Assembly (NCBI RefSeq): GCF_025273675.1
Contig: NZ_CP045809.1
Span: 2,728,001-2,792,000, forward strand
Length of the DNA stretch: 64,000 nt
Reading direction: 5' to 3'
From: Gordonia pseudamarae
GTDB taxonomy: Bacteria; Actinomycetota; Actinomycetes; Mycobacteriales; Mycobacteriaceae
The notes under the pieces are model-generated. The model made no database searches. It worked only from the letters and a program-made list of their open reading frames with translations, and was not told where the DNA came from. This document shows, piece by piece, positions 21,453 to 29,237 of this stretch. Each line of letters opens with the position of its first letter. The stretch's first letter is position 1. A program made the translations under genes and the position numbers.

Positions 21453-24217
21453 ACCCGTTGGGCACCAACAACATCGGACCGGACCGGACCACTGTGACCG
21501 CCGAGCGACCGCCGGACCGCGGCACGCACATCGGCATCGGCGTCGTCGGCCGCCGAGGCGAGGACGTCCCGGACATCGGCGTCGTCGGCCCACTGCTCCA
21601 GTGTCAGCGCCGCCGCTTTGCGAACGTCGCCGTGCACATCATCCAGGGCCGTCGCCAGCGCCCGCACCGTGGCCTCACCACGCCCGATCACCAGACCGTG
21701 CGCCGCCCCCACCCGCACCTGCCATGCGAAGTCTCCCAACGCCTTCCGCAACTGCGGGGCATCAGTATCGCCGTCGCCGAGGACGGCCATCGCCTCGAAT
21801 GCCGCGGCTCGCACGAGCGGGTCGTGGTCGGCCGCGAGGATGCGCACCGCGTCTATCCCGAAGGTGCCGACGGTGGCCAGTCCCGTCGCTACCGCCACCC
21901 TCACCTCACGGTTGGGGTCGGCGGCGAGCGCGGCAATCGGCCGCGGGCAGTCCAGCGAGACCAGACCACGGGTCGCCTCGATCCGCACCCGGTGATGCTC
22001 GTCGCCCAGTCCCGCCTCGAACATCTTCACCGAACCGATCTTCAGAGCGCGCACCAGATCGAGGGCCGTCGCACGGACCGTCGAGTCACCGGACTCCTCG
22101 CAGGCATGCAGCTCTGCCACGAACCCGGTCGTCAATGTCACCATTTCGACAAGCTCGCGCAGACCTCTGATCGCCTCGTGCCGCACCGACGAATCGTCGT
22201 CGCCCAAGGCCCGCACGAGTGCCCGCTCCCACCCGTCCGGGGTTGTCTCGGTGACCACCGACACCGCCGTCCGGCGCACCGTCGGATCGTCATCGCGCAG
22301 GAAGGTTGCCAGATCATCGACCGAACCGGCCTCCGGTAGGGACAGCAACTCGACAACCTTCGGCGCGCCCGACGACGCCGCGGCGGTCTCTGCCCGAGAC
22401 TGCCGTACCGGGCTGTCCATCCCACGGAGTTCGGGTCCCACATCCACCTGTGGTTGTTCGACGGCGATCACACGCCGATCCGCGGGTGGAATATGGTCAA
22501 GCCCTTCGACACCGACCAGGTACGGTTCGACCGGCCTGCCCAGGAACCGCATCGAACCGTCGGCGGCCTTGTGGACGTTCAGGTGGTATCCCCACTCCGC
22601 GTCACGGCGCTCGGGAATGTCCGCGCGTTCGTGGTAAAGGCCCCACCGGCTCTCCGTTCGGGCCAGCGAACTGCGGGCGGCCAGCTCGGCGCAATCGCGG
22701 ATGAAGGTGACCTCGGCGCACCGCATCAGCTCGTGCGGGGTACGTGCGCCCATCTCGGCGATCTCCGCACGCATCCGCTCGAACGTCTCGATGGCGATGG
22801 CCAATTTGCTCGATGTCTTGGGCGGTGCCACATAGTCGTTGACGAAGCGGCGCAGTTTGTACTCGACCTGGGGTTGCGGCGGGCCGTCGGGATTGCGCAG
22901 AGGACGGTAGATCAACGCATGTGCCTCGGCGAGCTGGTCGAACGGCAATTCGTCCGGCATCGGAATCTCGCGTGCCACTCCGCTGGCGTGGGTACCGGTC
23001 AGCTCCCCGTAGACGAACGCACCGATCATGTAGTTGTGGGGAACACATGCCAGGTCACCGGCCGCGTACAATCGGTCCACGGTAGTGCGGCCATGTTCGT
23101 CGACCCACACCCCTGATGCTGAATGTCCACTGCACAAACCGATTTCGGAGATGTGCATTTCTATGTCATGCGTTCGGTAGTCATGGCCGCGATTCTGGTG
23201 AAACGTTCCCCGGGTGGGGCGTTCGGTGGTGTGCAGAATCGATTCGAGCGCATCGACGGTTTCGTCGGGCAGGTGACTGACTTTCAGGTAGATCGGGCCG
23301 CGCGCGGATTCGATCTCCGATTTCACCTCCGACATCATGTCCCCGGACCAGTAGTCCGAGTCGACGAACCGCTCACCTTGGGAGTTGACCTGGTAGCCGC
23401 CGAAAGGATTGGCGACATAGGCGCACGCCGGCCCGTTGTAGTCCTTGATGAGCGGGTTGATCTGGAAGCATTCGATGCCGCTCAGCTCCGCGCCCGCGTG
23501 ATATGCCATGGAGTAGCCGTCGCCGGCGTTGGTCGGGTTCTCGTATGTGCCGTACAGGTAGCCCGAGGCCGGCAGACCGAGACGTCCGCAGGGGCCGGTC
23601 GCGAGGATGACGGTCTTGGCCGCGATCTCGATGAACGCACCGGTCCGAGTGTTGAATGCGGCCGCGCCGACCGCACGTCGCCCTTCGGTGAGCACCCGTA
23701 CCGGCATGATGCGGTTGTCGATGGTGATCTTTTCGCGCATATCACGTTTGCGCAGCACTCGGTACAGAGCCTTCTTGATGTCCTTGCCCTCGGGCATCGG
23801 CAGCACATAGGACCCGGAACGATGGACTCGCCGCACCGCGTACTCGCCGTACTCGTCCTTCTCGAATTTGACCCCGTACCGCTCGAGCCGTCCGATCATC
23901 GCGAACCCGCGGGTGGCCGTCTGGTACACGGTCTTCTGGTTGACGATCCCGTCGTTGGCCCGGGTGATCTCGGCGACATAGTCCTCGGGGGTGGCCTTGC
24001 CCGGTATCACCGCGTTGTTGACCCCGTCCATCCCCATCGCGAGCGCGCCCGAATGCCGCACATGTGCTTTCTCCAGGAGCAGGACGTCCGCGCCGTTCTC
24101 GGCGGCGGTCAGCGCCGCCATCGTGCCCGCGGTACCGCCGCCGATCACCAGGACGTCGCATTCGCGGCGCTCGCGTGTTCCGATGTCCGGTATGGCCATG
24201 GTTTCTGGTTGTGTCAT
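21449..24217 (-). CDS. AprA-like FAD flavoprotein fused to C-terminal HEAT repeats
   Basis: A 922-residue fusion. Residues 1 to about 600 belong to the fumarate reductase/AprA flavoprotein superfamily with FAD motif GGGTAG at 26-31. They carry stretches I associate with adenylylsulfate reductase alpha subunits: AYHAGAELSGIECFQINPL, KDYNGPACAYV, FHQNRGHDYR, HISEIGLCSGHSASG, VPHNYMIGAF. Residues ~630-910 are about eight HEAT-like (PBS-lyase type) helical repeats such as LRDDDPTVRRTAV and LGDDDSSVRHEAI. AprA works with an iron-sulfur partner, and a 2[4Fe-4S] ferredoxin gene lies in the same operon. Its ATG overlaps the ATPase stop (ATGA). The substrate is unknown; a role in organosulfur or related metabolism is inferred. 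No dissimilatory sulfate genes are nearby. Confidence 0.82.
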   Translation of the reverse strand: MTQPETMAIPDIGTRERRECDVLVIGGGTAGTMAALTAAENGADVLLLEKAHVRHSGALAMGMDGVNNAVIPGKATPEDYVAEITRANDGIVNQKTVYQTATRGFAMIGRLERYGVKFEKDEYGEYAVRRVHRSGSYVLPMPEGKDIKKALYRVLRKRDMREKITIDNRIMPVRVLTEGRRAVGAAAFNTRTGAFIEIAAKTVILATGPCGRLGLPASGYLYGTYENPTNAGDGYSMAYHAGAELSGIECFQINPLIKDYNGPACAYVANPFGGYQVNSQGERFVDSDYWSGDMMSEVKSEIESARGPIYLKVSHLPDETVDALESILHTTERPTRGTFHQNRGHDYRTHDIEMHISEIGLCSGHSASGVWVDEHGRTTVDRLYAAGDLACVPHNYMIGAFVYGELTGTHASGVAREIPMPDELPFDQLAEAHALIYRPLRNPDGPPQPQVEYKLRRFVNDYVAPPKTSSKLAIAIETFERMRAEIAEMGARTPHELMRCAEVTFIRDCAELAARSSLARTESRWGLYHERADIPERRDAEWGYHLNVHKAADGSMRFLGRPVEPYLVGVEGLDHIPPADRRVIAVEQPQVDVGPELRGMDSPVRQSRAETAAASSGAPKVVELLSLPEAGSVDDLATFLRDDDPTVRRTAVSVVTETTPDGWERALVRALGDDDSSVRHEAIRGLRELVEMVTLTTGFVAELHACEESGDSTVRATALDLVRALKIGSVKMFEAGLGDEHHRVRIEATRGLVSLDCPRPIAALAADPNREVRVAVATGLATVGTFGIDAVRILAADHDPLVRAAAFEAMAVLGDGDTDAPQLRKALGDFAWQVRVGAAHGLVIGRGEATVRALATALDDVHGDVRKAAALTLEQWADDADVRDVLASAADDADADVRAAVRRSLGGHSGPVRSDVVGAQRV

Positions 24218-25089
24218 GCGTTCGTCCCCTGACTGTGAAGTGTCGTCTCGTCCGGAGACGTGGCCTGCGCACCCGGTGTCGGTCCCGGTGGCCGTGTGCC
24301 GCCCGCGATTGTCGGCGGCGGGCCGAGCGCGTCGGTGATCCGTCGGCGTAACCCGTCGGTGACCGCGACCGAACGGCTGTGCGGTGCGCGCGGATTCGGA
24401 ATGTCGATGACCGCCTGCACCGGCGCTCCGGCGCGACCGAGAACAATCACCCGATCACCCAGCAGCAGCGCCTCGTCCACATCGTGGGTGACGAACACGA
24501 CGGTCGCCGAATGTCGGGCGAGTGTGTCGATCAGCAAGGTCTGCATGGTGTGCCGGGTCTGCGCGTCCAGTGCGCCGAACGGCTCGTCCATCATGATCGC
24601 GCGCGGGGCGCCGGCCAGTCCCCGGGCCAGTTGCACCCGTTGGCGCATCCCCCCGGACAGCGACTTGGGCAGGTAGTCGGCAAATCCGGTCAGACCGATC
24701 TCGGCGATCCAGCGGTCGGCCTCGGCACGGCGTTCGGCGCGCGGCACACCCCGCAGCCGCAGCGCCAGCAGAATGTTCTTGCGGACGGTTCGCCAAGGAT
24801 GCAGGGCATCATCCTGAAACACCATAGCCCGGTCCCGGGAGGGGCCGGTGACCACCTCGCCATCGGCGATGATGTCGCCGCCGGACACCGGCGACAGACC
24901 TGTGATCGCCCGCAGAAGTGTCGACTTGCCACAGCCCGACGGTCCGGTCAGGACCACGATCTCGCCCGGTTCGACAACCACATCAATGTTGTCGATGACG
25001 GTCGTCGCGCCGTATCCGATGCTGACGGTGTCCAGTTCGATACGCATCGCCGTCGACGATGCCGAAGCTCTGCCGGGACCGGTGGTCAT
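24214..25089 (-). CDS. ABC transporter ATPase, SsuB/TauB (sulfonate/nitrate) type
   Basis: A 291-residue nucleotide-binding subunit: Walker A GPSGCGKST at 49-57, Q-loop FQDDALHPW, signature LSGGMRQRVQLARGL, Walker B IMMDEPFGALD and switch HD. The short family loop and the W after the Q-loop place it with the nitrate/sulfonate/taurine importer ATPases. The last ~45 residues are a Pro/Gly-rich tail. AAGGTAAGGA lies before the ATG at 25089 on the minus strand. The IS110 element begins 13 bases upstream, cutting the gene off from its permease and probably from the operon promoter. Confidence 0.9.
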   Translation of the reverse strand: MTTGPGRASASSTAMRIELDTVSIGYGATTVIDNIDVVVEPGEIVVLTGPSGCGKSTLLRAITGLSPVSGGDIIADGEVVTGPSRDRAMVFQDDALHPWRTVRKNILLALRLRGVPRAERRAEADRWIAEIGLTGFADYLPKSLSGGMRQRVQLARGLAGAPRAIMMDEPFGALDAQTRHTMQTLLIDTLARHSATVVFVTHDVDEALLLGDRVIVLGRAGAPVQAVIDIPNPRAPHSRSVAVTDGLRRRITDALGPPPTIAGGTRPPGPTPGAQATSPDETTLHSQGTNA

Positions 25090-25149
25090 CGTGTCCTTAC
25101 CTTTCTAGATGGGGTGACCGGAGACCTGTGGTTTCGTAGGCTGTGAGTT

Positions 25150-25285
25150 GCCCTGGGGCTCCGGGTATGGCTGTCATCGTGTTGCTGGTGGGTACAGCTG
25201 AAGGAGAATGGCCGCCCGGTGTCCTGCGACGACTCGACCGCTGATTGAGAGACGCGATGCGATCGCTGTGTAAGGACACGCCGGG
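25150..25285. ncRNA. Candidate IS110 bridge (seek) RNA region
   Basis: This non-coding stretch before the transposase holds two signals. First, gtaaggacacg at 25270-25280 is the exact reverse complement of the left flank 25090-25100, directly beside the presumed CT core, and aggacac within it can pair with gtgtcct at 25219-25225 to form a 7-bp stem with a 47-nt loop. Second, ctggggct at 25153-25160 repeats the element's right terminus including core CT (26581-26588). Such matches to target and donor are what bridge-RNA loops show in the IS110 family. The transcript strand and ends are not determined. Confidence 0.5.
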
Positions 25286-25340
25286 GATGTCGTCTGCAGG
25301 GATTCCTACTGTTCACCAACGACTCCGGAGGTAGGCACGA

Positions 25341-26555
25341 ATGGCGAGACAAGTATGGGCCGGTGTCGACGCCGGTAAGACCGCGCATCACTGCGTTGTA
25401 ATCGATACCGATGGGGAGCAACTTTTGTCGCGGCGGATCGACAACGACGAACCCGCCTTGACTGACCTGATCGCCACGGTCGGCGACATTGCCGCCGGTG
25501 GCGAGGTCACCTGGGCGATGGACCTCAACGCCGGCGGCGGGGCACTGCTGATCGCTTTGCTGATCGACGCGCAACAGAGGCTGCTTTATCTGCCCGGCAG
25601 GACCGTGCACCACGCATCGAAGGGCTACCGAGGTGACGGTAAGTCCGACGCTAAGGATGCGGCAGTCATCGCCGATCAGGCGCGGATGCGCCGCGACCTG
25701 CAACCCCTGCGCCCGGGTGACGACATCGCGGTCGACCTCAGGATCCTGACCGCCCGCCGGGCAGACCTGGTCGCCGACCGCACCCGTGCAATCAACCGGA
25801 TGCGCGCCACCTTGCTGGAGTTCTTCCCTGCGCTCGAGCGAGCCATCGACTACAGCAGTTCCAAGGCCGGGTTGACCTTGTTGACCGGCTACCAGACCCC
25901 CGATTCGATTCGCCGTATGGGCCACGCACGACTGGAGGCCTGGTTGCGTAACCGCAAGGTGCGCAATGCAGCCGCGGTCGCGCAGACCGCCATGGACGCG
26001 GCGCATCAGCAGCACGTCACGGTCCGCGGTCAGCAGGTCGCCGCGCAGATCGTGGCTCGGTTGGCCAAGGAGGTGATGACCCTCAACAGCGAAATCAGCG
26101 ACACCGAAGCGCTGATCGAGGACCGATTTCGCCGCCACCCGCACGCCGAAATCCTGACCAGCATGCCCGGCTTCGGGACCATCCTGGCCGCAGAGTTCCT
26201 CGCCGCCACCGGCGGCGACATGACCGTCTTCGGCACCGTCGACCGCCTCGCTGGCGTCGCGGGCCTGGCACCAGTTCCCCGCGACTCCGGCCGGATCAGC
26301 GGCAACCTGCACCGGCCGCGGCACTACAGCCGCCGACTGCTGCGTTCCTGTTATCTCTCCGCGCAGGTTGCAGTACACCGCGATCCCGTCTCGCAGGTCT
26401 ACTACCAACGCAAACGCCGCGAGGGCAAGACACACGTGCAAGCAGTCATCGCGCTCGCACGCCGTCGTCTCAACGTTCAATGGGCCATGCTCCGCGACCA
26501 GAAGCCCTACACCACAACCGATTCCGCAACCCACGTCCACGGCGCGGCCGCCTGA
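25341..26555 (+). CDS. IS110-family transposase (DEDD recombinase)
   Basis: A 404-residue intact transposase. The N-terminal RuvC-like DEDD domain has WAGVDAGKTAHH, WAMDL and GDGKSDAKDAAVIADQ. The C-terminal Tnp domain has SMPGFGTILAAEFLA with the serine used in IS110 chemistry, then FAGVAGLAPVP-like and RSCYLSAQ segments. GGAGGT lies ahead of the ATG. The enzyme works with a bridge RNA to join the element to a short core in the target. Nothing suggests decay, so the copy may be active. Confidence 0.93.
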   Translation: MARQVWAGVDAGKTAHHCVVIDTDGEQLLSRRIDNDEPALTDLIATVGDIAAGGEVTWAMDLNAGGGALLIALLIDAQQRLLYLPGRTVHHASKGYRGDGKSDAKDAAVIADQARMRRDLQPLRPGDDIAVDLRILTARRADLVADRTRAINRMRATLLEFFPALERAIDYSSSKAGLTLLTGYQTPDSIRRMGHARLEAWLRNRKVRNAAAVAQTAMDAAHQQHVTVRGQQVAAQIVARLAKEVMTLNSEISDTEALIEDRFRRHPHAEILTSMPGFGTILAAEFLAATGGDMTVFGTVDRLAGVAGLAPVPRDSGRISGNLHRPRHYSRRLLRSCYLSAQVAVHRDPVSQVYYQRKRREGKTHVQAVIALARRRLNVQWAMLRDQKPYTTTDSATHVHGAAA

Positions 26556-26571
26556 CAACACCCTCCGATTC

Positions 26572-27486
26572 TCACCCCCTCTGGGGCTTGACAACTTCAT
26601 TGAGATTCTCCTCCGCCCTCGGCAGCCAGTGGGTGATGCGGCGGCCGAGCAGTTCGATGCCGCCGGAGGTGAGGGCGCCGAGGACGCCGATGGTGATCAT
26701 CCCGACGAACACCTGCCGGTAATCCACGACCGTGTACGCCTGCCATGTGCGGTATCCGATTCCGAATTGGCCGGAGATCATTTCCGCCGAGATCAGGCAG
26801 ATCCATGACACACCGATACCGACGGATACGCCGCTGAATACCCCGGGCGCGATTCCCGGCAGCACCACCCGGGTGATGACGTCCGATCGTGTTCCGCCCA
26901 TGGTGCGTACCGAGTCCTCCCAGATCGTGGGCAGGGCACGTACCGCGTGCCGGGTTGCCACCAGGATCGGGAAGAAGGCGGCGATGAACGTGATGAACAC
27001 GATGCCCACCTCGTCGGTCGGCAGAATCAGAATCGCGATGGGTACCAGTGCGATCGCCGGAATCGGCCGGACGACTTCGGTGAGCGTCCCCAGCGACAGC
27101 GACGCCGCCTGGGACCGCCCCAGCGCGATCCCCAGCGGCACGCCGACGGCCACGGCCAGCACGAAGCCCGAGGCAATCCGGATCACCGACTGCGCCACGT
27201 CTTTGTAGTAGGTGGCCGACGACAGGCTCGCCCCGAACGCGTCGGCGATCTCGGTCACCGAGGGCACTGTGCTGAATTTGGCCCACAGCTCCACGTCGTT
27301 GGCGGTGAGGAACTGCCAGACACCGGCCGCCGCGGCGAGCACAGCGACCCGGATACCCCATTCCCGCAGCCGTCCCGGACGGCGCCGGGTGTTGCCGCGA
27401 TAGACCGTCGGGGGCGTACCTGGTGTATCGGAGCTGCCGGCGACAACGACATCGACGGTGGGCGACTGTACGGTCGGGGCGCTCAT
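26572..27486 (-). CDS. ABC transporter permease, SsuC/TauC type, 3' end altered by IS110
   Basis: The ATG at 27486 overlaps the binding-protein stop (ATGA) and gives 304 residues. There are about six membrane segments and the BPD_transp_1 loop EDSVRTMGGTRSDVITRVVLP. The final residues KPQRG and the stop come from the insertion sequence. The reconstructed original ended ...EVVKVRTR with its stop overlapping the ATPase start. The change affects only a few terminal residues, so the protein may still fold, but coupling to the ATPase is lost. The family imports sulfonates, nitrate, taurine or related small anions. Confidence 0.88.
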   Translation of the reverse strand: MSAPTVQSPTVDVVVAGSSDTPGTPPTVYRGNTRRRPGRLREWGIRVAVLAAAAGVWQFLTANDVELWAKFSTVPSVTEIADAFGASLSSATYYKDVAQSVIRIASGFVLAVAVGVPLGIALGRSQAASLSLGTLTEVVRPIPAIALVPIAILILPTDEVGIVFITFIAAFFPILVATRHAVRALPTIWEDSVRTMGGTRSDVITRVVLPGIAPGVFSGVSVGIGVSWICLISAEMISGQFGIGYRTWQAYTVVDYRQVFVGMITIGVLGALTSGGIELLGRRITHWLPRAEENLNEVVKPQRG

Positions 27487-28934
27487 CGGGCGACCTGCCC
27501 GATTGCGGCCTCGTAGGTCACCGGGACCGCCCCGGGATGTTCCGAGCCGTAGGCGGCCGCGCTGTCGGCGGTGGTGAAGGCGAAGAATCGGTCGCCCTCG
27601 CGCAACCAAACCGCCTTGTCGGCGAACCAGCGGGTGCCCAGGCGCGGGTCGACGATGTATGCCGCGCGCACCGTATGCCCGTTGTCACGGGCTGCTCTGA
27701 CCGCCTTCAGCAGGCAGGTCGGGTCGGCGGCGGGTTGGGTGCGCGCATCGCCGGCAAGCCACAGTTCGGCCGCCGAGGAAGAGTTCACTTCTCTGTTGCA
27801 CAACGAGTCTCGTCCCTTGATGGTGAGTTCGTTCGTTCTCGCGACCAGTGCCGCCTCGTAGTCCTGGCCCGAGTCGGCGACCGCCCTGCGCAGCGGTTCG
27901 TCGTTGACAAACTCATCGATGTCCAGGTCGCGTTCGAAGCTGCCGATCGACTTCAGATACGGCTTGTCGCCTTTCAGCGCGGCGATGAGCGATGGTTTGA
28001 GCGCGGGATTGAAGTCGGTCCCGGCCGGCCCGTTGTACATGTACACCACCTCCGGGGGCAGTCCACTTCCGTCGGCCACCTTCTGTGCCGCCCCCAGCGG
28101 ATCGGCGACCAAGGACTGTGTGGCGTCCAGTTGTGCGCGCAGAAATGACTCGACCACGTCGGGGTGCCGGGCGGCGAATCGCGATCCGGCGACAACACCG
28201 TGCAGCGTCGGCACACCCAGTTCGGCACCGTCGTACAGCAGACGCGCCTTGTTCTGGAAGACCAGCAGACCGGGCCACGCGACAAACTGGGCCAGTGCGT
28301 CGACCTTGCCCGATTCCAGCGCGGACGCGCCGACCTGCGGCTGCTGATTGGTCACCGACACCCCGGCGACCGGGTCGATGCCGATGCGGTCCAATGCCTG
28401 GACCAAAGTGCCGTGGCCGGCCGACCCGACACTCGCCGAGATCTGCTTCCCACGCAGATCCGCCAGCGTGGTGAAGGACGAATCCTTGGGCACCACAACC
28501 ATGTTCAGCGCGCCCCGGGGACTGGATCCGGTGATGGACAGCATCTCGGTGCGGGTGCTGTCGTTCGCCGAAGCCCGGGAACCGTTGATCAGCAGCGGAT
28601 AGTCACCCATCGAACCGATGTCGATCTTCCCCGCGATCATTCCGGTGGTGATCGGCGCGCCGGTGTCGTAATCCTGCCAGGTCACGGTGTAGCGCTTGCC
28701 CGTTTTCGATGACAGTTCATCGAGCCGCTTCTCAAAATGTCCTTCGGCCCGCAGCAGTGTTCCTGCTGTCACGGTGTTGATCGTTTTCGACTGATAGCCG
28801 ACGACGACGGTGATCGCGTCACCGCCGTCGTCGCCGGTGCTCTCGAGTGAACATCCGGCGACGGTGCCGGACAGAACAGCGCTCACCGCGGCCACCACGG
28901 CGAAACGGGCATGACGAAACTTCGTAGGAGCCAT
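27483..28934 (-). CDS. ABC transporter substrate-binding lipoprotein with extra C-terminal NosL-like domain
   Basis: A 483-residue lipoprotein with signal peptide and lipobox VAGC (C28). Residues ~40-360 resemble periplasmic binding proteins of the SsuA/TauA/NMT1 type (VVGYQSKTINT, GDYPLLINGSR, LADLRGKQISASVGSAGHG, AGSRFAARHPDVVESFLRAQ). Residues ~385-483 form an added domain (SLCNREVN, AAYIVDPRLGTRWFADKAVWL, FFAFTTADSAAAYGSEHPG) that looks like the NosL/metal-chaperone fold, though this is from memory only. Two Cys there could form a disulfide or bind metal. It lies 75 bp after the ferredoxin gene. Ligand unknown. Confidence 0.83.
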   Translation of the reverse strand: MAPTKFRHARFAVVAAVSAVLSGTVAGCSLESTGDDGGDAITVVVGYQSKTINTVTAGTLLRAEGHFEKRLDELSSKTGKRYTVTWQDYDTGAPITTGMIAGKIDIGSMGDYPLLINGSRASANDSTRTEMLSITGSSPRGALNMVVVPKDSSFTTLADLRGKQISASVGSAGHGTLVQALDRIGIDPVAGVSVTNQQPQVGASALESGKVDALAQFVAWPGLLVFQNKARLLYDGAELGVPTLHGVVAGSRFAARHPDVVESFLRAQLDATQSLVADPLGAAQKVADGSGLPPEVVYMYNGPAGTDFNPALKPSLIAALKGDKPYLKSIGSFERDLDIDEFVNDEPLRRAVADSGQDYEAALVARTNELTIKGRDSLCNREVNSSSAAELWLAGDARTQPAADPTCLLKAVRAARDNGHTVRAAYIVDPRLGTRWFADKAVWLREGDRFFAFTTADSAAAYGSEHPGAVPVTYEAAIGQVAR

Positions 28935-29009
28935 CGTGATTCCTTGAGTAGGGCGAAAGAACAGGTGAGCTGTCGGCCGAGCCGGCGACGGGCTGTGTCG
29001 CGGGAACTG

Positions 29010-29237
29010 TCAGCGCAGCAGATAGGGCATGTTGATCGTCACCGCGCCGGTCGGGCAGCGCAGCGCGCACGGTCCGCAGTACCAGCATTCGTCGACGTGC
29101 ATGAAGGCCTTGCCATTGTCGGGATTGATGGCCAGCGAATCGAGCGGACACACTTCGACGCAGAGTGTGCACCCGGTAATACAGAGGGACTCGTCGATCG
29201 TGACAGGCACGTCGACACGTGAATTCACCTGGGCCAT
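29010..29237 (-). CDS. 2[4Fe-4S] ferredoxin, AprB-like partner
   Basis: A 75-residue protein with two iron-sulfur binding sets: C19-x3-C23-x2-C26-x3-C30-P and C51-x2-C54-x2-C57-x3-C61-P. The first set has three rather than the usual two residues between Cys 1 and 2. It resembles the ferredoxin core of AprB but lacks the long C-terminal tail that wraps AprA. Sharing an operon with the AprA-like flavoprotein, it is the likely electron donor or acceptor. The start ATG lies inside the GntR gene (13-bp overlap), so the two are co-transcribed. Confidence 0.9.
   Translation of the reverse strand: MAQVNSRVDVPVTIDESLCITGCTLCVEVCPLDSLAINPDNGKAFMHVDECWYCGPCALRCPTGAVTINMPYLLR

Follow-up and report, generated by a model that had tools for sequence, protein, structure and literature searches.

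An IS110-group insertion sequence lies in the window (the whole stretch of 64,000 nucleotides of Gordonia pseudamarae DNA that was analysed), flanked by a permease-like gene on one side and the gene for an ABC-transporter ATPase on the other, both on the minus strand. A sequence-only reading of this locus had pointed out that GTAAGGACACG at 25270-25280, in the left non-coding end of the element, is the exact reverse complement of CGTGTCCTTAC at 25090-25100, and the sequence agrees; the segment was then proposed as a possible guide with which the bridge RNA of this copy had found its target. This raises the question of which part of the element recognizes the target, and of what that target is. 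We are highly confident of the answer in outline: this is an IS110 element that encodes a bridge RNA in its left end, whose donor loop corresponds to the element's own ends and whose target loop corresponds to a translation-start signal. In kind the element is an ordinary one, an IS110 member with a bridge RNA and a TC core. Unlike ordinary members, it has a target loop that, as predicted from its sequence, spells a start codon and a Shine-Dalgarno sequence.

The features that define the element and its immediate neighbour are as follows.

25094 to 26608, plus strand: IS110-group insertion sequence, both cores included (1513 bp core to core)
25094 to 25095, plus strand: left core, TC (from the empty site and restored frames)
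26607 to 26608, plus strand: right core, TC (from the empty site and restored frames)
25341 to 26555, plus strand: IS110 transposase, 404 aa (Pfam and PDB matches)
25089 to 24214, minus strand: ABC-transporter ATPase gene (Pfam ABC_tran, 7.4e-30)

Six identical copies of the element, each with different flanks, are present in this genome (a single contig of 5.15 Mb). Comparison of the copies by itself left the core position ambiguous by a few bases, and the ends were set by an orthologous empty site together with restored reading frames. The uninterrupted form of the site occupied by copy L003 is present in a genome of the same genus, where the alignment across the junction is free of gaps. 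When the flanks are joined with the first TC of the right end as the core, a stop-to-stop frame of 305 aa comes back in L003 and one of 548 aa in L004; with the second TC, neither frame is restored. Because the L003 empty site aligns without gaps and the two frames are restored only in this way, the core is TC at 25094-25095 and 26607-26608. The same two observations rule out the other TC of the right end (the second, in TTCTCC) as the core and overturn the CT core of the sequence-only reading. No orthologous empty site was obtained for L002 from four aligned relatives, which are too distant around the junction and align only at the gene start.

Where the site is empty, the permease-like frame runs to ...RAEETR and its stop overlaps the start of the ATPase gene (CGATGACC). 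Where the element is inserted, the ending of this frame is ...RAEENLNEVVKPQRG: its last two residues are lost, eleven others are gained, and the overlap with the ATPase gene is gone. The element splits an ABC-transporter-like operon (24214-29237, minus strand), of which the ATPase is confirmed by Pfam, while a putative permease, a binding protein, a flavoprotein next to them and a ferredoxin-like gene are assignments read from the translations. Elsewhere, the window holds a glycine riboswitch aptamer (Rfam RF00504, 49274-49376, minus strand, 61.3 bits) and a match to 5_ureB_sRNA (Rfam RF02514, 33602-33890, plus strand, 49.5 bits against a gathering score of 40).

The transposase has both domains of the IS110 group (the PF01548 and PF02371 pair was tested), with E values of 2.7e-48 for DEDD_Tnp_IS110 and 1e-17 for Transposase_20. 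Its sequence also matches ISCro4 and IS621 in the PDB, the match to the solved IS621 transposase spanning only residues 241-392. As regards the catalytic D-E-D-D and C-terminal serine of the IS110 group, all 54 aligned transposases have D10, D103 and D106, and 50 have S316. The putative DEDD Glu position is Asp61 (25521-25523), likewise Asp in all 54, the correspondence with IS621 having been judged by eye.

Upstream of the transposase gene, 247 nt of non-coding sequence separate the core from the ATG, and it is here that the bridge RNA is found.

25153 to 25296, plus strand: target- and donor-loop region of the bridge RNA (covariance model match; a range for the loops, exclusive of transcript ends)
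25155 to 25225, plus strand: hairpin with the target-binding loop (consensus fold)
25184 to 25198, plus strand: inner stem-loop of the target-binding loop (consensus fold)
25228 to 25294, plus strand: hairpin with the donor-binding loop (consensus fold)

The consensus fold, derived from an alignment of 40 left ends, consists of two hairpins with large internal loops, the first of which contains an inner stem-loop; it is thus a structured RNA with two guide-bearing internal loops, as in the IS110 group. Compensatory change supports it, in that 15 of its 31 pairs are changed on both sides (pairs of the 40-end consensus, tested on 30 relatives). On these 30 relatives, the window being left out, 97.6% of cells are paired, against 27-56% in slid controls, and none of 500 shuffles reaches the fold on any of five measures. 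Folded as a single sequence, the target hairpin stands out from shuffles (z -2.69), while the donor hairpin (z -0.60) and the whole left end (z 0.33) do no better than shuffles.

A covariance model built from the 30 relatives, again without the window, matches 25153-25296 on the plus strand with 142.6 bits and an E value of 2.7e-29, the next match having an E value of 0.068. Run against the whole genome at E 0.001, it retrieves the six copies of the element and nothing else. There are 19 relatives in the same genus with 35-45% transposase identity, and 12 were run against the model; the 11 that match (E at most 7e-9) have 41-45% identity, and L085, at 35%, gave no match. Rfam at its gathering thresholds has no match at the element. 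Among the matching same-genus elements of 41-45% transposase identity (L066-L084), those inspected carry ACAATCACC-like guides and adjoining flanks with similar final letters, as judged by eye, and represent another target class. Two earlier proposals from sequence, that the element belongs to IS110 and that its left non-coding end holds a bridge RNA, are borne out by the two Pfam domains and by a model that had never seen the window.

Two segments of the target-binding loop, about 90 nt upstream of where the sequence-only reading had placed the target guide, were found to correspond to the flanks.

25175 to 25183, plus strand: left target guide, CATCGTGTT (follows its own flank, 40 distinct guides)
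25200 to 25207, plus strand: right target guide, GAAGGAGA (follows its own right flank, 16 distinct guides)
25208 to 25209, plus strand: candidate handshake nucleotides of the target loop, AT, which can pair with the AT that precedes the right core (role as in IS621 by analogy, PMC11208158)
25087 to 25093, plus strand: left target of the window copy, CATCGTG (antisense of the ATPase start codon plus spacer)
26609 to 26616, plus strand: right target, TCCTCCGC (antisense of the Shine-Dalgarno side of the target)

The core complement is the last GA of the right guide, which spells the Shine-Dalgarno sequence, and the two guides together spell the antisense start codon and the Shine-Dalgarno sequence. 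Across 61 elements with 40 distinct left guides, the guide agrees with its own left target at 5.42 of 7 positions and with foreign targets at 3.40 (best of four offsets for own and foreign pairs alike). Across 39 elements with 16 distinct right guides, the corresponding values are 4.19 and 1.45 of 5. In neither case did any of 20000 permutations reach the observed fit; the permutations shuffle distinct guides and ignore the descent of the elements, so that these figures are not exact probabilities. Two right-hand pairs, L028 and L111, fit poorly (2 of 5 each). Since the guides differ greatly between relatives and the flanks differ along with them, the guide has been reprogrammed in nature.

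As to the rows behind these tests, loci below 50% identity or cut near the N-terminus had been excluded earlier; six loci without a recognised left core and three without the loop pattern (L027, L032 and L038) were dropped, as were L011, L045 and L097 from the left-guide test. Usable right ends were available for 39 of 64 rows, and L009 and L096, which share a flank, are probably one site. Another candidate for the right target guide, CTGCAGGGA near 25293, was rejected: it lies outside both consensus loops, and TGCAG is found only in L003 and L004.

In this element, then, the target loop pairs with the bottom strand of the left target and the top strand of the right target, as in the IS110 group, the left pairing being uneven among its own copies. 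In a fixed register, the left guide fits the six copies at 7, 4, 2, 5, 5 and 0 of 7 positions; with four offsets allowed, the values become 7, 4, 5, 5, 5 and 5 (foreign average, 3.40). CATCG is present in five of the six flanks, at a variable distance from the core. It may be that the left guide is read loosely, or that it tolerates shifts, or that some insertions are off-target.

Read on the opposite strand, the target is AAGGAGA-N4-7-ATG, that is, a Shine-Dalgarno sequence and a start codon. Four of the six copies lie between the Shine-Dalgarno sequence and the start codon of a gene, the empty sites reading, on the coding strand, GGAGGAGA-CACG-ATG in L001, AAGGAGA-CACCCCG-ATG in L002, AAGGAGA-TCCG-ATG in L005 and AAGGAGA-ACAACG-ATG in L006. 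By Pfam, the proteins that start there belong to ABC_tran, AMP-binding, LapA_dom (a marginal match, 28.8 bits with a cut-off of 28) and SBP_bac_11. The other two copies are intragenic: L004 has AAGGAGA-TGCG-ATG, and L003 has AAGGAGA without an ATG at a distance of 4-7 nt. CGATG is read in all four AAGGAGA copies that have the ATG, and in L001. Because L003 and L004 sit inside genes, the guide matches the motif and not the gene start as such.

AAGGAGA occurs 430 times in this genome (reversed-pattern control, 164) and AAGGAGAN4-7ATG 54 times (control, 11); of the 54, five come from right ends of the element itself, and nine of the 49 that remain read CGATG. The pattern TCTCCTTACC has no match in this genome. 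An ATG at 4-7 nt accompanies four of the five AAGGAGA insertions, compared with 49 of 425 sites (binomial 0.0008, for a small sample and a comparison chosen post hoc). A target loop that reads both the ribosome-binding site and the start codon may explain why the element lands just before genes.

One alternative is that the preference for translation starts comes from the host or from selection, insertions at gene starts being those that survive, and not from an RNA guide. We consider this improbable, although it is the best placed of the alternatives. Insertion before genes may well be tolerated, two copies are intragenic, and the left guide fits weakly in some of the element's own copies. 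However, elements with a CAT guide face the start of an open reading frame in 23 of 29 cases, whereas those of the same family with other guides do so in only 7 of 32, the flanks follow the guides of each individual element, and L004, although intragenic, keeps AAGGAGA-N4-ATG. (A start was scored when a frame of at least 80 aa, or one open to the end of the locus, began 2-10 nt from the core; the test is imperfect, in that L004 passes though intragenic, and the 29 elements include the six copies and one site counted twice.)

A second alternative, also improbable and slightly more so, is that the site is chosen to supply translation signals to an antisense open reading frame, as proposed for IS900, going by the title of the 1997 report by Doran; here the right junction places AAGGAGAATCTCAATG ahead of an antisense frame of 504 aa. 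The genome does have five occurrences of the junction motif, at right ends of the element itself, and the frame (26600 to 25086, minus strand) is open. Against this, codon use predicts an open frame by itself (0 stops expected), the nearest relative, L064, has just 30 aa from the junction ATG, and a full-length frame from that ATG is found in only 9 of 29 elements. On the other strand, the right junctions of L002-L006 read AAGGAGAATCTCAATG, a good translation start made half of target and half of element.

We return, then, to an RNA guide directed at the motif itself, and to the 11-nt segment, which belongs to the second loop.

25270 to 25276, plus strand: right donor guide, GTAAG, with the core complement GA, the first 7 nt of the 11-mer (follows its own left end)
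25096 to 25100, plus strand: right donor, CTTAC (pairs with the right donor guide)
25244 to 25250, plus strand: left donor guide, ATTGAGA (varies together with the left donor in relatives)
26599 to 26606, plus strand: left donor, ATTGAGAT (matches the left donor guide)
25277 to 25278, plus strand: candidate handshake nucleotides of the donor loop, CA (role as in IS621 by analogy, PMC11208158)

In all six copies, the pairing partner of GTAAG-GA is TC-CTTAC, the left end of the element itself. Over 24 distinct guides, the right donor guide agrees with its own core and right donor at 6.62 of 7 positions, with a permutation mean of 5.66 (0 of 20000 permutations reaching the observed value); the junctions of L012 and L021 do not fit. 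The left donor guide is identical to the left donor in 34 of 39 rows (ATTGAGA in 23, our six copies among these, ATTGGGA in 10 and ATTAGGA in 1), and the ATTGAGA match between 25244-25250 and 26599-26605, which had been thought possibly due to chance, is this pair. The donor loop thus pairs with the bottom strand of the left donor and the top strand of the right donor, as expected of the IS110 group.

The 11-mer is accordingly made up of the right donor guide (5 nt), the core complement (2), two handshake nucleotides and two more. The sequence-only reading was right that a segment of a guide loop is complementary to the insertion junction and that chance is an unlikely source of the match (when the 30-nt flank was shuffled 20000 times, 22 shuffles reached 11 nt), and the covariance-model fit that it had proposed put 25270-25280 in the donor-binding loop, where it pairs with the left end. 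That this segment is a target guide, with 25090-25100 as its target in the window copy, we regard as very nearly out of the question: exact as the complement adjoining the core is, and rarely as shuffled flanks equal it, TCCTTAC, which makes up 7 of the 11 nt, consists of the core and the end of the element itself and is present in every one of the six copies. The remaining nucleotides match completely in a single copy and in part in two others. The fold places the segment in the second (donor) loop, the right donor guide follows the right donor across 24 distinct guides, and another segment accounts for the target flanks. The refuting condition that the sequence-only reading had set for itself also goes against it, since the 11-mer is kept in all six copies while the match to the flank runs to 11, 10, 8, 7, 7 and 7 nt, or just 7-8 nt in four of the six.

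In IS621, handshake nucleotides beside the right donor guide pair with the target after strand exchange (PMC11208158). By analogy, the handshake CA, set against the target's TG, can account for two of the four extra matches in the window copy, and a TG before the core is present only in L001 and L002; the other two extra matches are probably due to chance. Two smaller claims of the sequence-only reading stood in part. CTGGGGCT at 25153-25160 is indeed repeated at 26581-26588, but the repeat stops 18 nt short of the right core, without including it, and a search for a role found none. GTGTCCT is present at 25219-25225, but the stem GTGTCC/GGACAC that it was said to form with the 11-mer is absent from the consensus fold of 40 left ends, in which GTGTCC pairs in the target-loop stem.

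The ends of the element, once joined, also suggest how the RNA might be made.

26588 to 26593, plus strand: -35 half (TTGACA) of a putative circle-junction promoter (joined ends)
25098 to 25103, plus strand: -10 half (TACCTT) of the same putative promoter (joined ends)

Joining of the right and left ends gives TTGACA, 17 nt and TACCTT, and TTGACA-17 or 18 nt-TA(N3)T is found at the joined ends of 33 of 34 elements, the 34th being masked by N. Such a promoter at the joined ends, seen here at the level of sequence, is a property of the IS110 group, and the order TTGACA-N17-TACCTT predicts that the RNA is read from the plus strand. The computation establishes the boundaries, the core, the fold and four guide segments, as well as the way in which these follow their flanks, and one can propose how they might work together. 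Excision would join the right end with the left end in a putative circular intermediate, and the joint promoter would then transcribe the bridge RNA on the plus strand. Once expressed and assembled into a ribonucleoprotein, the RNA would recognize the element's own joined ends through its donor loop (ATTGAGA and GTAAG-GA), while the target loop would read AAGGAGA-N4-7-ATG on the other strand; strand exchange at TC would place the element between the two halves of the target.

In several respects, this element resembles the IS621 bridge RNA system (PMC11208160, PMC11208158): both have a DEDD/Transposase_20 recombinase and a long left non-coding end, two internal loops with the bottom-strand guide 5' and the top-strand guide 3' and the core included, and a promoter formed by joined ends. 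However, the core is CT in IS621 and TC here, which places our element outside the CT-core subgroup, and the target of IS621 is a REP element, whereas ours is a translation-start signal with a variably offset left target guide. The seekRNA of IS110/IS1111 (PMC11187229) shares the IS110 order, in which the bottom-strand match lies 5' of the top-strand match, although its targets differ; in IS1111 members, that source places the RNA downstream of the transposase gene, whereas here it lies upstream.

A further likeness is to IS900. The target class is not new, since the IS900 motif is nearly the same and, going by its title, a report by Doran in 1997 is said to have named translation initiation signals as the target of IS900. 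CAT-N4..7-TC-TCCTT, a near match to the IS900-type target, is found in L002, L004, L005 and L006, with TCCTC in L001 and without the CAT in L003. The motif published for IS900 of Mycobacterium avium subsp. paratuberculosis, CATGNNNNNNTCTCCTT, is nearly the CAT-N4-7-TC-TCCTT of our element, the comparison being with the published motif alone (PMC8141618). In detail, IS900 has CATG-N6-TCTCCTT, whereas our own sites read CATC and vary in spacing, and many relatives read CATG. The antisense frame hed of IS900 (same source) has a counterpart in our element, but a long antisense frame is not conserved in the element's family. Among the open-licence papers listed in our searches, none connects a bridge RNA with IS900 or with the targeting of Shine-Dalgarno sequences. 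In the main texts, "bridge" is absent from PMC8141618 and "IS900" from PMC11208160 and PMC11187229.

On balance, we favour a broader reading, in which the target guides of a branch of IS110 that includes IS900 spell the antisense start codon and the Shine-Dalgarno sequence, so that these elements would be RNA-guided to translation starts across the genome and not to one repeat, relatives with reprogrammed guides would have left this niche, and insertion would swap the signals. If this is true, the right junction of the element acquires the Shine-Dalgarno sequence of the target, and the host gene is served by the left end of the element (GGTAAGGA) instead. Such a reading supplies a testable mechanism for the 1997 observation on IS900: a bridge RNA may carry the translation initiation signals spelled out in its target loop. 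More generally, comparison of copies allows donor and target guides to be separated in raw sequence, and a guide aimed at a short motif common to many genes, its natural reprogramming within one family and a TC core may be useful for understanding and choosing bridge recombinases.
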